IMG/VR virus record: IMGVR_UViG_3300021083_000337
Coordinates: 1-20,222 of that record
DNA from: a virus
Reading direction: 5' to 3' (one strand)
Length of the DNA stretch: 20,222 bases
Notes under the pieces: generated by a model
The model's database searches: none
Told to the model about the DNA's origin: nothing
What the model saw: only the letters and a program-made list of their open reading frames with translations
Part shown: positions 2,364-20,169 of the stretch, piece after piece
Layout: every line of letters starts with the position of its first letter
Numbering within the stretch: the stretch's first letter is position 1
Program-made: the position numbers and the translations under genes

Positions 2364-2624
2364 ATGCAATACAAAGATACTTTACAATTATTCGATGAGT
2401 TAGTAGCAACTGGAGTGCCAGATGCTCAAGCACGTATTCAGGCTCAGCAACTTGGCTCAATGGGAAACTATATTGGTGATGTTATTTCTTCTGTAAATGA
2501 AAAATTGGACAAACTAGAAATAGATTTATCTGAAATCAGAAAGGATTTGTCTTGGATGCGTATAATTGGAGCGGCAATGACCGTGGCTTTTTTCTCTAAT
2601 ATATTATTGGTCGGTTTGAAGTAA
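2364..2624 (+). CDS. DUF1640-like coiled-coil protein with C-terminal membrane anchor
   Basis: An 86-aa product from ATG 2364, preceded by GGGG at 2354-2357. The N-terminal motif DTLQLFDELVATGVPDAQAR (residues 5-24) is followed by a predicted coiled coil (about 40-63, with regular hydrophobics in VNEKLDKLEIDLSEIRKDL) and one C-terminal membrane helix at about 66-84 (IIGAAMTVAFFSNILLVGL). This order, TL..(F/Y)..L...G(V/I)P..QA then coiled coil then anchor, matches small bacterial proteins I know as DUF1640/CCDC90-like, whose function in phages is unknown. Two further proteins with the same N-terminal motif lie on the minus strand at 17392-17910. Oligomerisation at the inner membrane is likely; function is open. 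Confidence 0.7.
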   Translation: MQYKDTLQLFDELVATGVPDAQARIQAQQLGSMGNYIGDVISSVNEKLDKLEIDLSEIRKDLSWMRIIGAAMTVAFFSNILLVGLK

Positions 2625-15039: not shown

Positions 15040-16050
15040 GTGTTCTACAATAACTTTGCAGGAATTGAGCCCTTACAAGCCGACACAAGCTCAAGAGACA
15101 TGATGAAGCGTATGTTGGAAGCGCAGTACGCACCCCAAGAAAGAGAAGACAAGAGTATTATTAGCGGCGCAAAGGCTAAGTATGCTGAAGAGAACGAAAG
15201 AGCGCGCCATGAGGACTTGATGTCACAGGCGTTGGCAAGAAGGGCAAGAACCGAAGCATCTTATGGTAGAGATGGCGGTTCTGGCGGTGGAAAAAAACAA
15301 TATGCTCCAAGTGGTTTAGCAAAATTGATGCTAGAGAGAAATGATGTGGAAGAAGGATTTCTTCCTGGCAGTAATAGAAGCATAGAGCTTACTCCTGAAC
15401 AACAAGAAGAGTACATGGGGCGATTGGATTTGCAAATTCAAAAGACCTCTACCGATGTTAAGACTCGTGATAAAAGCTTACAAGCATCTAACCTACAAAA
15501 GTCTATGGACGCTTTAAATACAGATGATATAACTCGTTATTCAGGTCCTAAAGGCGCAATAAAATTAAAATATGAGCAGGCAAAAGATTTGGCTGGAAAC
15601 CCATCAGAAGAATATTTGAGGTACAAAGAAGCGTTAATTGCGAGTGAATATGAAACATCGGAATTAAGACAATTCTTTGGTGACTCAATTACACCACAAG
15701 TTAGAGAGCATTTGCAGATGTTATCTAACCCAAGCGCATTAAATTTGAGTCCAGAAGCGGCGAGAAAGCAGATTGAAAAATCTCGCGCAATCATTGCGAA
15801 GCAATTGAAAACATATACAGAATCTCTAAAGAGCACCAAGCCCTACAAAGGGAAGGAAGAAGTTGAGGAGCAGGAGGCAGCTAAGATTTCTAAGGCATTA
15901 ACTAATGCGGAACAAGGCGCTATGCAACCTCCAATTGAAGAACAATCCATGCAAGGAACACCTGCTACGGTCACTATCAGAAATCCAAGAACTGGTGAGA
16001 CTAAAACTATTCCTTTTCAAGAGGCCATGAGAATGGGGTTAATGAAATGA
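15040..16050 (+). CDS. 336-aa coiled-coil protein, putative ejection protein
   Basis: Starts at GTG 15040, chosen because the near-consensus AGGAGGTT (15027-15034) lies just upstream, ending 5 bases before it. Highly charged and helical throughout: DMMKRMLEAQYAPQEREDKS, KAKYAEENERARHEDLMSQA, then after a glycine linker (GGSGGGKK) further helices. The end, TPATVTIRNPRTGETKTIPF followed by QEAMRMGLMK, is a small compact motif I recall at the C-termini of large phage virion proteins. No catalytic motif is seen. It lies between two other ejection candidates, 2 bases after the first and with an ATGA overlap to the next, so all three are made together. Function is inferred from synteny with the P22 ejection block. 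Confidence 0.55.
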   Translation: MFYNNFAGIEPLQADTSSRDMMKRMLEAQYAPQEREDKSIISGAKAKYAEENERARHEDLMSQALARRARTEASYGRDGGSGGGKKQYAPSGLAKLMLERNDVEEGFLPGSNRSIELTPEQQEEYMGRLDLQIQKTSTDVKTRDKSLQASNLQKSMDALNTDDITRYSGPKGAIKLKYEQAKDLAGNPSEEYLRYKEALIASEYETSELRQFFGDSITPQVREHLQMLSNPSALNLSPEAARKQIEKSRAIIAKQLKTYTESLKSTKPYKGKEEVEEQEAAKISKALTNAEQGAMQPPIEEQSMQGTPATVTIRNPRTGETKTIPFQEAMRMGLMK

Positions 16051-17309
16051 ATGATTACAGTGGATGGGAATTAGTTCCCTTTGATGAAGCGCAAGGTCGT
16101 GCACCACAGCAGTCCCAAGCCAACGATTATAGTGGTTGGGAAGTAGTTGGGAGCCAACAGCAGCCTGAGCGACAAGAACCTATGTGGGAATCTGCTGTAA
16201 CCGCATTTAATAAGCCTTTCGAAAAGCTAGCTCATGGCATATTGCAACCGGCGTTAGAGAATGGATATGTTCCCGATTCTTTAAGGAGGGGTTCAGAGGA
16301 TGTTGCTGGTAGAAGAGCTAGGGCCTATGAACAATCAGAACGTCAGAACCCTATGTCAGCTTTGCTGGGCTCCCTGTTAGGGGAAGGCGCATTAGCAGCC
16401 CCATCAATTGCTGGTGGTGGCGGAATCCTTGCACAGATATTGCGTGGAGCAGGCGCTGGAGCTGCAAGAGGTGGTGCAGAATATGCGCGCCCAGAAGAAT
16501 CGAGGTTAGAGAATGCCTTGACTGGCGGCGCTATTGGTGGCGCGACTGGTGCGATACCTGGTGTAGCCAAGGGGCTATTAAAAGGGGTTAAAGGAATTCC
16601 AAGAGCAGCAAAGGCTGTTTATAATGCGCCAAAAAACACCGCCGGTTTTATAAAAAATGCCTTTGCTGGGACAGATACAAAAGTTGGAAAAAAGGTTATT
16701 GAGAATACTAAAGCTGCCAAAAGATTATATAATGAAAAATACTCTGGTTTTTTTAAAGAGGCAAAGGATGCTGGTGTTTCAAAGTTAGACCCTTCAAAAG
16801 TAGATACAGGTAGCGTAAGGAAATTTTCTACAGAAAAAAATAGGGAAATGTTTTCAAAGTTTCTTGAGAACCCTACACTTAAAAATGCTCATGAAGCCAG
16901 TAAAGAGGTCAGATCTTTGGCTAGGTCCTTTGAAAAAGGCGGTAAATCTAAATATAAAACCAATGCAATAAAATCTTTAAATAAGACGCAGAAACAAATA
17001 GAAAGAACTATGGACCGGGCTTTAAAAAAGTCTTCAAATCCCGGCTTAAGTGGTCAAATGAAAAAAATTGATTCTGGCTATGCTAAAGATGTTATCCCAT
17101 ATTCTGAAAATAGGCTTATAAAAAAGAGCCTCGCCGGAAAACTTTTACCAGCAGACTTGGGGGGAAGACTTAAAGGTCAAGATGAGTTTAGAGCTGAGCT
17201 AATGCATTTATTCCCAGAGATAGGCGCAAATGAAACAGCCAAACAAATAGGTAAATGGGGTACTGGGGGGTCGATAGGTCTAACCGGGCTTGCAAAGTTG
17301 TTCTTATGA
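16047..17309 (+). CDS. 420-aa putative DNA-ejection protein with glycine-zipper-like region
   Basis: ATG 16047 overlaps the preceding stop as ATGA. The N-terminus has a duplicated motif: NDYSGWELV at 2-10 and NDYSGWEVV at 26-34. A long A/G-rich segment (104-180: ALLGSLLGEGALAAPSIAGG, ILAQILRGAGAGAARGGAEY, LTGGAIGGATGAIPGVAKGL) has the small-residue spacing of glycine zippers and could insert into or cross membranes. The C-terminal half is basic and helical (KAAKRLYNEKYSGFFKEAKD and SLNKTQKQIERTMDRALKKS). This mix suits an ejection protein that forms a channel for phage DNA, like P22 gp16/gp20. The gene is the last of the plus-strand block and ends 2 bases from the convergent minus-strand cassette. 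Confidence 0.6.
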   Translation: MNDYSGWELVPFDEAQGRAPQQSQANDYSGWEVVGSQQQPERQEPMWESAVTAFNKPFEKLAHGILQPALENGYVPDSLRRGSEDVAGRRARAYEQSERQNPMSALLGSLLGEGALAAPSIAGGGGILAQILRGAGAGAARGGAEYARPEESRLENALTGGAIGGATGAIPGVAKGLLKGVKGIPRAAKAVYNAPKNTAGFIKNAFAGTDTKVGKKVIENTKAAKRLYNEKYSGFFKEAKDAGVSKLDPSKVDTGSVRKFSTEKNREMFSKFLENPTLKNAHEASKEVRSLARSFEKGGKSKYKTNAIKSLNKTQKQIERTMDRALKKSSNPGLSGQMKKIDSGYAKDVIPYSENRLIKKSLAGKLLPADLGGRLKGQDEFRAELMHLFPEIGANETAKQIGKWGTGGSIGLTGLAKLFL

Positions 17310-17311
17310 AA

Positions 17312-17395
17312 TTAAATATCTTTATCAATAACGCTCAGCGTGAGCCATACCATAAAACACACAGCACTTATTGTGAAAAGTATTATACCAATCAT
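17312..17395 (-). CDS. 27-aa single-helix membrane peptide
   Basis: A tiny gene from ATG 17395-17393 to TAA 17314-17312. The start overlaps the stop of the upstream minus-strand gene as ATGA and has an excellent GAGGAG site (17402-17407 region). The product, MIGIILFTISAVCFMVWLTL followed by SVIDKDI, is one hydrophobic helix with a short acidic end, outside the cytoplasm or inside depending on orientation. The ribosome site and overlap argue for real translation. Third gene of the cassette; function unknown, but small helix-only peptides of this size can modulate membrane partners encoded beside them. Confidence 0.55.
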   Translation of the reverse strand: MIGIILFTISAVCFMVWLTLSVIDKDI

Positions 17396-17667
17396 TTTAT
17401 TTTCTCCTCAATTATTGTTAATCGGTATTTAACTTCTGTCATTTCGTGTGATAAGTCCCACACTCGTGCAAGTGTAAATCCACCTATTATTATTATGATT
17501 GACCCGAATACACTTATAACTCTACTGCTAGCAAAATCTTTAACCAAATCGTTAACTTTAGTCATGAATGAATTTTCAAGAATGTCTGTCATGGATCGTG
17601 CTGTTATCGGGTCGACACCAGCGCGTATGTATGCATCATATATTTCTAATGTGTTCAAATGGCTCAT
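17392..17667 (-). CDS. 91-aa membrane protein, DUF1640-like N-terminal motif
   Basis: ATG at 17667-17665 follows directly on the stop of the upstream gene (TAAATG), with GGGTGG as a weak ribosome site. MSHLNTLEIYDAYIRAGVDP (1-20) matches the N-terminus of the 17668 and 2364 proteins. One membrane helix lies at about 49-68 (RVISVFGSIIIIIGGFTLAR), followed by a short coiled coil (LSHEMTEVKYRLTIIEEKIK), so here the anchor precedes the coil, the reverse of the 2364 protein. It belongs to a minus-strand cassette inserted between ejection and fibre genes. Likely forms hetero-oligomers with its neighbours (inference); no function is known to me. Confidence 0.65.
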   Translation of the reverse strand: MSHLNTLEIYDAYIRAGVDPITARSMTDILENSFMTKVNDLVKDFASSRVISVFGSIIIIIGGFTLARVWDLSHEMTEVKYRLTIIEEKIK

Positions 17668-17910
17668 TTATACCACCCACTTAGATATTAGAGGGAACAA
17701 AAGAAGAGTTATCAAAGTTCCTGCAACCAAATACACGAAGAACATTTTTAGGTCATATTCAAGTTTATTTAAAGCAGTAGTTAACACATCGGTTGTCACT
17801 GCAGAATCGAAACCTGAATTTAGTGCATATACGTGCGCCTCAGCTTGCTGTTCTGGTACACCAGAAGCTATTAAGTTTTTGTATGTCTTTAGCGTATTAA
17901 TATGCTCCAC
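17668..17910 (-). CDS. 80-aa membrane protein, DUF1640-like, first gene of cassette
   Basis: Starts at GTG 17910-17908 with GAGGA (17918-17922 region) upstream. MEHINTLKTYKNLIASGVPE (1-20) followed by QQAEAHVYALNSGF shares the pattern NTL..Y..(L/Y)I..GV......A with the 17392 protein and with the plus-strand protein at 2364. A short amphipathic stretch (ALNKLEYDLKM) leads to one C-terminal membrane helix at about 58-77 (FFVYLVAGTLITLLLFPLIS). It is the first gene behind the minus-strand promoter at 17947-17974. The family occurs in bacteria and phages with no settled role; a membrane-anchored oligomer is the safest description. Confidence 0.65.
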   Translation of the reverse strand: MEHINTLKTYKNLIASGVPEQQAEAHVYALNSGFDSAVTTDVLTTALNKLEYDLKMFFVYLVAGTLITLLLFPLISKWVV

Positions 17911-17946
17911 TTTCTTTTCCTCGTTATATTCTTACCCAACTAACTT

Positions 17947-17974
17947 AGTATACCATATGTATAAAAAAATGCAA
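17947..17974 (-). promoter_or_regulatory. Sigma70-like promoter for the minus-strand membrane cassette
   Basis: On the minus strand TTGCAT (17974-17969) is followed after 16 bases by TATACT (17952-17947), four and five of six to consensus. The spacer is very A/T-rich. It lies about 37 bases before the GTG start and gives the cassette transcription independent of the plus-strand late genes. Confidence 0.55.
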
Positions 17975-18045
17975 ATATTTCTTTCGAAAAGTGCATATAC
18001 TTGTATAAATGGAATTGCAGCTACATCTTTAAGGGAGTTTAAATT
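17975..18045 (+). promoter_or_regulatory. Leader of the tail-fibre gene, weak promoter candidate
   Basis: TATAAA at 18004-18009 is a fair -10, but the region about 17 bases upstream (TTTCGA 17982-17987) is a poor -35. AAGGGAG (18030-18036) is the fibre ribosome site. The fibre gene needs a promoter here if the minus-strand cassette interrupts the late transcript, so this is the place to look. Confidence 0.3.
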
Positions 18046-20169
18046 ATGGCCTTAAATCCACTCTATGTAACAGGCCCAGAACTGGAAGATTTTTTCATTG
18101 ATAAAGACACTGGGCTTCCTCTCGCGGGTGGTTTAGTTTACTTCTGGGAAGATGCATCACGCACAACTCCTAAACTTGTATACGAGATTTCTGGCTCTCC
18201 TCCAAACTATACTTATTCCGCATTGCCCAATCCAATTGTATTAAGTTCAGTTGGAACATTTCAGGATGATACCGGAAACAACATTGCTGTATATTATTAT
18301 CCTTGGGATACATCAACTCCACCTGTATTGCAGCTATATTATATTTCTGTTTATAACTCTTTCGGTGTTGAACAGTTCACAAGAGAAGCATGGCCTTACA
18401 ATTTAGCAATTGCATCTGGCGGAAGCACGTTAAACGGTCAGTACAACATCAGCAATATGCTGACAAACCCAGGATTTGCTGAAGTATTATTTATTCCAGC
18501 GAATGGGGATGTTATTTCATTTTCAGGAGCAGGGTCACTAAGTGTGGCAATTGCGCCCGGCTGGACCATAAATATCACATATACCGGAACAGGAACCGTA
18601 ACAATCGCACAGAACTCTATTACTGGCTCATCGAGTTATCCTGGAAATCCGCCTTACTCTTTGACCATAACCCCGGGAGCTAATATATCAGGGCTAACAT
18701 TAAGCCAGCAATTAACAAGCAATCCTGGTATATGGTCTGATACATCCGGTACGAATGGATATGTGGCTACATCAATGTTATTGGCACCTATGAGTTCCGC
18801 TAGCATTGCATATGCGCCATCAACTGGAACCATTACTCAACTTTTGTCAGGCACAAATGGATTGGGAACTTATCAAGAATTTAATGCGACAGTAGAATTA
18901 CCAGCATCAAATAATACATCTAACTCTAATGTCGGTTATTCTACTATTGTAATTACGTTACCTGTGGGAGCTGCAACGACATTAAGTAATATTCAAGTGT
19001 GTGGCTTGGAATCAAACATTAGTGGGATAGTCTATGAGCAGACTCCAGTTAATCGTCAGATTGACCAGATGTTTAATTATTACTTCCCTTTATTGGCTTA
19101 TAAGCCTATCCCTAGTTGCTTAACAGGTTGGGACTTTCCGACTAATCCTGCTCAATTTTTAACAAGCTCTGGGGGCCCATTTGCTACGGGCGCTAACACT
19201 TCAAACTATGTGTGGGACCAGACAATCATATTCCAGAATACAAATAGTGGTTTTACGTTTGCTAGGGGTTCATCTACCATTGGTTCGACTGGGTTACAAA
19301 TATCGATGGTTGAAAATAGTTCAATTGCAATTATTCAATATCTTGACCAGGCGCAAACTAGGGAACTGCTAATTGGGGGAACAGGGAGATTATCTGTAAA
19401 TGTTTCTGCAACCACTTCAAGCTCTTCATTAGTAAGTACAATATCACTATGGATATGTACTGGTAATAGCTTGCCTAATATGGGCGCAAATGCTTCTTTA
19501 GTTGCAACATTATCATCAACTGGAAAACCCGCAACATTAAATGGAACCTGGGTAGAAATACCAAGAAGCAATTTGGGGGATGCAACATTTTCACTTGCGC
19601 CTCTTGCAAATAATGTTCCGTCATTTGGATTTAATGGTTGGGACTTTCCGACAACCGCCATACCACTTACTGCACATTTCTTTGCTATAGTGGTTGGAAT
19701 AGTAAATCCAGTATCAAGCACAGAAGGCGTAATTTTTGATTCTATTTCTCTGGTACCAGGAGACATTCCGACTGTTCCAGCGCCTCAAACCCCGGATGAA
19801 GTGCTAAGGGAATGTCAACGGTATTATAGAAGCTCTTTTCCAATCGGAACGGCACCGGCAACCGAAGTCGGAGCCAACACGGGATGCTTAAATTTCCCTG
19901 CTACAACGACAACTACCGGAAACCAATTCAGTCAGACTGTATTTTATGGATCACAAATGCGCGTTAGCCCGTCCATTACTTTCTATAACCCTGTTCACAA
20001 TAACGCACAGGCTTATGACGTAACAGTAACGGGTGACTGCTCTATGACGGCGTCATTTAATAATAACGCCAATGGTTTTTGCGTGAGCTGTAATGGAAAT
20101 GCGAGCACCGCTATTGGGGATGCACTCCAGGTCCACTATTCTGCCGATGCAAGATTAGGAATTGTTTAA
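18046..20169 (+). CDS. Tail fibre / receptor-binding protein
   Basis: A 707-aa product from ATG 18046 behind AAGGGAG. The N-terminal domain (ELEDFFIDKDTGLPLAGGLV, YFWEDASRTTPKLVYEISGS, PNYTYSALPNPIVLSSVGTF) is an attachment module I recall from fibres of environmental phages; it ends near residue 123. A T/S/G/N-rich beta region follows, then a jelly-roll-like domain (about 355-580) containing GWDFPT at both 361-366 and 531-536. The end has a EVLRECQRYYRSSFPIGTAP helix and a final beta domain, the usual host-contacting tip. The fibre binds a surface glycan or protein of the host. No endosialidase or lyase residues were identified, so it appears to be non-enzymatic. Confidence 0.8.
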   Translation: MALNPLYVTGPELEDFFIDKDTGLPLAGGLVYFWEDASRTTPKLVYEISGSPPNYTYSALPNPIVLSSVGTFQDDTGNNIAVYYYPWDTSTPPVLQLYYISVYNSFGVEQFTREAWPYNLAIASGGSTLNGQYNISNMLTNPGFAEVLFIPANGDVISFSGAGSLSVAIAPGWTINITYTGTGTVTIAQNSITGSSSYPGNPPYSLTITPGANISGLTLSQQLTSNPGIWSDTSGTNGYVATSMLLAPMSSASIAYAPSTGTITQLLSGTNGLGTYQEFNATVELPASNNTSNSNVGYSTIVITLPVGAATTLSNIQVCGLESNISGIVYEQTPVNRQIDQMFNYYFPLLAYKPIPSCLTGWDFPTNPAQFLTSSGGPFATGANTSNYVWDQTIIFQNTNSGFTFARGSSTIGSTGLQISMVENSSIAIIQYLDQAQTRELLIGGTGRLSVNVSATTSSSSLVSTISLWICTGNSLPNMGANASLVATLSSTGKPATLNGTWVEIPRSNLGDATFSLAPLANNVPSFGFNGWDFPTTAIPLTAHFFAIVVGIVNPVSSTEGVIFDSISLVPGDIPTVPAPQTPDEVLRECQRYYRSSFPIGTAPATEVGANTGCLNFPATTTTTGNQFSQTVFYGSQMRVSPSITFYNPVHNNAQAYDVTVTGDCSMTASFNNNANGFCVSCNGNASTAIGDALQVHYSADARLGIV

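Follow-up and report, generated by a model that had tools for sequence, protein, structure and literature searches.

The window is a stretch of 20,222 nucleotides, positions 1 to 20,222 of the IMG/VR virus record IMGVR_UViG_3300021083_000337. It carries a cassette of three small genes on the minus strand, next to the tail fibre gene. The genes below are placed from the ORF list and the sequence.

2364..2624, plus strand: third paralog, 86 aa, upstream of the terminase genes on the late-gene strand (E 6.4e-5 to the 80-aa protein)
16047..17309, plus strand: left neighbour, a 420-aa late protein whose homologs adjoin the fibre gene in relatives
17312..17395, minus strand: 27-aa gene, ATG start
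17392..17667, minus strand: 91-aa gene, ATG start
17668..17910, minus strand: 80-aa gene, GTG start
17911..18045, no strand: divergent intergenic region between cassette and fibre gene, with a diverged junction element, GTATACTAA...TAAGAATATAAC, matched by eye
17947..17975, minus strand: promoter-like site TTGCAT-N16-TATACT, its -10 preceded by TG, lying 36 nt upstream of the GTG
18046..20169, plus strand: right neighbour, a 707-aa tail fibre protein (PHROG 4492 tail fiber protein, 1.7e-13)

The 80-aa and 91-aa genes abut, TAA being followed directly by ATG, and the 91-aa and 27-aa genes overlap by ATGA. A Shine-Dalgarno-like GAGGA precedes the GTG of the 80-aa gene. The 3' end of the cassette lies 2 nt from the left neighbour, and its start lies 135 nt from the start of the fibre gene. 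Outside the cassette, every gene-like ORF between 1964 and 20169 lies on the plus strand, which confirms the three tightly packed minus-strand genes in an otherwise plus-strand late block described in the earlier note. Each product contains one strongly hydrophobic stretch (19-residue Kyte-Doolittle maxima of 2.4, 2.0, and 2.4 for the 80-, 91-, and 27-aa products), in agreement with a reading as three membrane proteins. The cassette had also been placed between ejection and fibre genes. This stands for the fibre gene, while the left neighbour is a candidate ejection-type protein by position, that of P22 gene 16. The GC content of the cassette is 0.356 against a late-block mean of 0.421, and 0.8% of equal windows are as low. 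No tRNA or Rfam elements are found within the window.

A 266-aa plus-strand ORF, 17255-18055, is open over the entire region and could be the true gene, with the minus-strand ORFs spurious. Homolog searches reject it. The 266-aa ORF is without a significant homolog, its best weak matches have E values of 0.05 or worse, and these fall opposite family genes, as expected of shadow similarity, whereas the minus-strand frames have many significant homologs. The family of these frames is under purifying selection in several pairs of relatives (dN/dS 0.13-0.2). Judged by the independent homologs, the dN/dS values, and a recurring micropeptide, the minus-strand ORFs are beyond chance, and the plus-strand reading keeps next to no probability.

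With the 80-aa protein as query, the window's own record returns the protein itself, its 91-aa neighbour, and a third ORF at 2364-2624. Shuffle tests favour the three proteins as paralogs; for the 91-aa protein, 0 of 2000 shuffles match the 80-aa protein as well. A profile built from the three window proteins and one IMG/VR relative gathers 45 members from the window and the loci collected by then, and the profile E values are 1e-11 for the 91-aa protein and 1.3e-23 for the 86-aa paralog, which has a similar copy at L031 1756-2016. The alignment of these phage proteins, A2, has a single head pattern, M..I[ND]TL..Y..L.A.G.PE.QA, followed by a charged stalk that varies and by a hydrophobic C-terminus. 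Most relatives have the neck LATKEDL. The neck is degenerate in the 80-aa protein (AVTTDVL), and no neck motif is evident in the 91-aa protein. The published beta-layer motif of DUF1640 is [aliphatic]-A-T-K-[polar]-[DE] (PMC4786415), and by its residues the LATKEDL neck of the relatives is this motif.

The 80-aa protein has head helices at 6-15 and 20-35, then the degenerate neck, a short stalk, and a C-terminal anchor at 57-75. An AlphaFold model of modest quality (pLDDT 72, pTM 0.36) has helices at 6-15, 20-35, and 40-79, and a Foldseek search of PDB with this model gives no significant match. The 91-aa protein has a DUF1640-like head, a hydrophobic segment at about 51-69, and a charged, possibly helical C-terminal tail.

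Scored singly against PF07798, the 80-aa protein reaches 14.1 bits and the best relative 28.8; both are below the Pfam gathering cut-off of 33.5 bits, which is a search threshold and not a biological trait. A profile search of Legionellales genomes matches 9 of 143 and returns longer, dispersed proteins, four of six tested being above the PF07798 cut-off. These Pfam-positive DUF1640 proteins of Legionellales are part of the host-type alignment A3, and hhalign matches A2 to A3 over the whole length (probability 99.3, E 2.5e-20, 88 columns). Among PDB sequences, the phage profile matches the CCDC90B head 6h9m best (E 0.008); the host profile has 6h9l and 6h9m among its top PDB matches, alongside designed helical proteins. 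Membership is carried by the intermediate profiles, and the assignment of the 80- and 91-aa proteins as DUF1640-like is close to settled. This paralogy in a known family was overlooked in the earlier note, as were the third copy at 2364-2624 and the copies at several junctions in relatives. The Pfam matches in the window to HRG, NAD synthase, and the like are chance matches, and the PADLOC matches are coiled-coil noise only. The DUF1640 genes of Legionellales (L086-L100) are dispersed singles flanked by housekeeping genes, and a 2.3 Mb genome has as many as 9.

DUF1640/CCDC90 proteins range from bacteria to mitochondria. To our knowledge, there is no agreed bacterial function for them. The wider PF07798 family includes MCUR1, CCDC90B, yeast Put6/Put7, and bacterial members, and the phage proteins share its head, stalk, and C-terminal anchor, along with the neck motif in most relatives, with a profile-profile match across the whole length. 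The window copies are shorter than the eukaryotic proteins, have degenerate necks, singly score below the Pfam cut-off, and are tandem, phage-borne, and antisense to late genes. Small phage-encoded DUF1640 proteins are also annotated in the records of APSE phage (P47, NC_000935) and the Megaira phage MAnkyphage (a CCDC90-like protein, OP381185). Those genes differ in lying near replication and regulator genes and not at an ejection/fibre junction, and no tandem cassette is seen there.

The 27-aa product is a single-TM micropeptide, and its ATG is preceded by a GAGGAG Shine-Dalgarno sequence. No homolog of the ORF is detected by sequence search. TM micropeptides of 19-29 aa with a Shine-Dalgarno sequence close the cassette beside the left-hand gene in L011/L069, L014/L059, L021, and L012, against a background rate of 7 in 2030 intervals; an equivalent is not found in L007 or L067. 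By this recurrence, the 27-aa ORF is a real gene. The L012 micropeptide follows a Band_7 gene and not a DUF1640 gene; therefore, the micropeptide belongs to the junction and not to the DUF1640 genes.

A moron is a gene group, usually independently expressed, that is seemingly inserted when an operon is compared across relatives (PMC2629481). Antisense placement and an own promoter are a recognised signature (PMC7067206). The layout of the cassette had been called that of a moron, and a comparison with related phages was run. The relatives are 65 related loci collected by a capsid protein search. A viral-contig search with the 420-aa protein and a DNA-level search for the cassette in named phages gave no match, and a protein search in plasmids gave one weak match. 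Contents of the ejection/fibre junction were compared where both flanks are present.

Two DUF1640 genes: the window, L014, L059, L067
One DUF1640 gene: L007
One DUF1640 gene and a YefM-YoeB-type pair: L021
Three DUF1640 genes and a YefM-YoeB-type pair: L011, L069
Band_7 and YefM-YoeB: L012
Empty: L042 (genes abut); nearly empty: L039/L040 (189 bp)

The cassette is thus not universally present at this junction, which in relatives is empty, near-empty, or holds different cargo. The relatives with an empty junction are not near-identical phages, their capsid protein being 62-71% identical. Matches that identify the cargo are YoeB (1e-32), Phd/YefM (2.2e-11), ParE (3.3e-15), and Band_7 (4e-24). 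Together with the low GC of the cassette, the comparison supports the moron layout, and the cassette is very probably moron-type cargo. Toxin-antitoxin genes of YefM-YoeB and ParE/RHH type lie at DUF1640 late-block junctions at L011 19047-19707, L012 10353-10945, L021 14498-15012, L014 5471-6353, and L018 5088-5617. Another antisense cargo, at L017 8304-9026 and L029 147-863 (minus), is a small outer-membrane-barrel-like protein with a signal-peptide-like start; the L029 protein has no Pfam match.

Family genes occupy four late-block junctions in related phages. Besides the ejection/fibre junction, these are the terminase/portal junction, the position before the scaffold gene, and the position upstream of the small terminase gene. 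There are 4-7 copies per genome of about 39 kb. Orientation is antisense in 23 of 25 distinct late-block members, though the phages are related and these are not 25 independent events. Copies on the late strand are found at L122 15242-15499, L123 8695-8952, and 2364-2624 of the window; therefore, not every copy is antisense cargo. More distant relatives are mostly without family genes, and G161 has one weak host-type match.

The copies differ in a modular way. The genes at the second junction site of L006 and L011 share 245 near-identical nt spanning promoter and head; the identity ends in the neck, beyond which stalks and anchors are unrelated. Other family pairs have common anchors and different heads. 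As judged from these alignments, modules are exchanged at the neck. It is conceivable, if doubtful, that the paralogs form a combinatorial repertoire, recombined at the neck, that would diversify phage-against-phage exclusion alongside a junction-specific micropeptide. The gene at L013 3907-4134 points to turnover: it copies the L006 1493-1765 gene but, with the anchor intact, lacks most of the head.

The promoter TTGCAT-N16-TATACT proposed ahead of the cassette is present in the sequence and can also be read as TTTGCA-N17 with the -10 TATACT. In the window alone, it does not clearly rise above chance, as a scan finds 7 such sites against 4.2 +/- 1.8 expected. Near-consensus sites at the matching position in relatives lend it weight. 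L011, L014, and L021 carry TTGACA/TTGACC-N17-GGTATAGT at the same position ahead of their cassettes; the first cassette gene of L021 has TTGACA-N17-TATAGT with an extended -10 upstream, and the L011 and L014 sites are similar. The 27-aa ORF contains a weak hairpin that resembles a terminator, at a level close to chance.

A 30-nt element (AGTATAGTAAAATYTAAG plus flanks) adjoins the portal gene as well as the fibre gene, independent of the cargo carried. Its positions, all on the minus strand, are as follows.

L006: 2113
L007: 17629, 713
L011: 19748, 2114
L012: 10970
L014: 16177, 1020
L021: 15053, 842

The window carries a diverged version, recognised by eye. The recurrence of the element suggests a shared promoter or a recombination boundary, and it could serve as a promoter for either strand.

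The close relatives are known as metagenome contigs alone. A tyrosine integrase (PF00589) is found in none of 20 records. Resolvase (PF00239) is found in one of 14 records tested, G158, and in none of the family-rich records of at least 37 kb. ParA is encoded by each of the five family-rich records that are at least 37 kb long, against one of the eight family-poor records, a comparison between related phages that overstates independence. No parA lies in the window, itself a 20-kb fragment. ParA, the lack of an integrase, and the toxin-antitoxin genes together suggest that the family-rich relatives may exist as plasmid-like prophages. The host is uncertain, as the capsid relatives belong to one Legionella maceachernii isolate and many unrelated MAG bins. 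A direct search for the family in seven genomes with capsid relatives, including Legionella maceachernii, found none. A PF07798 search of 22 Legionella genomes also returned nothing, but its control genomes were equally silent, so this result carries no information. A second cassette of small membrane proteins, divergent from parA, lies at L124 7181-9068 and consists of two DUF1640-like genes and two tiny TM genes.

The P22 'ant moron', which includes sieA, lies between genes 16 and 9 (PMC8022706, PMC2629481). The cassette resembles the 'ant moron' of P22-like phages (sieA, immI) in its ejection/tailspike-or-fibre junction and its variable content, and its predicted promoter would also give it an expression of its own inside the late operon. 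An inner-membrane protein gene is likewise present in P22. The two differ in that no sieA, mnt, arc, or ant is found in the cassette, which has DUF1640 paralogs and a micropeptide instead and no sequence in common with the P22 moron. Outside this one site, the morphogenetic cluster of P22-like phages is free of morons (PMC2629481), whereas the relatives of this phage carry them at four junctions. This arrangement bears on the question, posed in the same work, of whether other sites in the morphogenetic cluster tolerate morons. HK97 gp15, a predicted inner-membrane protein named as a moron element, and P22 SieA are prophage exclusion proteins that block DNA entry (PMC10883804 and its reference list). 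Unlike these, the window proteins would act in exclusion by proposal, and no sequence similarity between the two sets is detected. Pfam, PHROGs, and PADLOC searches likewise give no similarity to SieA or another exclusion protein.

The cassette is most likely cargo of a phage-plasmid type that would be expressed outside lytic growth, act at the inner membrane, and plausibly serve in exclusion. It would be accessory cargo with its own promoter on the strand opposite the late genes. In each of the two main products, a small helical head in the cytoplasm would be joined through a neck to a short coiled-coil stalk, with a C-terminal anchor in the inner membrane. The stalk is probably trimeric, with oligomeric state and membrane topology as predicted, and the third product would be a membrane micropeptide. 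The proteins would probably be made while the phage persists in the presumed plasmid-like state and be placed in the host inner membrane. Such expression is probable because the multigene family sits in integrase-less, ParA-bearing genomes with toxin-antitoxin modules. A SieA-like exclusion is proposed, in which the products would act at the inner membrane against the DNA-ejection proteins that related phages bring in. The grounds for this proposal are the junction, which is the P22 sieA site, and the variation of anchor and stalk while the head pattern is kept. A role in exclusion is a tentative, reasoned guess, ranked above roles in lysis timing, in upkeep of the plasmid-like state, and in modulation of the host.

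Lysis timing is an unlikely alternative, in which the anchored stalk proteins and the micropeptide would work as antiholin- or holin-like regulators, their antisense copies delaying lysis or stabilising the infected cell. A conserved late-strand copy is preceded by a small TM gene and a PHROG 3108 gene at L122 15242-16318, L123 7896-8952, and L125 9894-10949. Its dN/dS is 0.13, and there is a weak resemblance of some family anchors to Ldr/Fst membrane toxins (E about 1e-3). The PHROG 3108 gene is of unassigned function and lies in lysis-module-like surroundings; the lysis role of that neighbourhood is itself putative. Most copies are also antisense, several with their own promoter-like sites, and neither their number nor their placement is constant, as one would rarely see in an essential lysis clock. 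Modulation of host membrane complexes in transport or respiratory assembly, with a general fitness benefit to the carrier cell, is about equally unlikely. Mitochondrial MCUR1 is described as scaffolding a membrane complex (PMC7519068). The mitochondrial relatives MCUR1/CCDC90 are proposed in such a role, and host-type copies are dispersed single genes in Legionellales. We know of no bacterial DUF1640 member with a known partner. The tandem copies and the fast exchange of anchors would be better explained by conflict than by a fixed partner in the host.

It is rather unlikely that the proteins maintain the plasmid state, as partition or replication membrane tethers or as physiology modulators acting with ParA and toxin-antitoxin genes. 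ParA occurs in all five family-rich long records, L124 has two family genes and two tiny TM genes divergent beside parA, and toxin-antitoxin genes occupy the same junctions. Common ancestry may nevertheless account for the ParA association; in L122, L123, and L125 parA has no family gene as its direct neighbour, and 4-7 redundant, diversified copies would be odd for a tether. A neutral or selfish multigene family, spread among junctions by recombination with no useful function, is quite improbable. Dispersal to four junctions, short stretches common to different junctions, and the damaged copy in L013 would be expected of it, but purifying selection acts in several pairs, start signals and promoters are retained, and no mobility gene accompanies the family.

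DUF1640 genes at the P22 sieA junction, multiplied, shuffled, and selected, offer a direct, testable handle on the function of the bacterial family. The same phage group would also inform how podoviruses with plasmid-like traits defend the host cell. In another IMG/VR contig, at L004 4989-5618, 33 nt separate a DUF1640 gene from the gene downstream of it, which has a weak Cas2-type match. The latter gene, which we take to be VapD-like, has a similar counterpart at L021 4435-4725.
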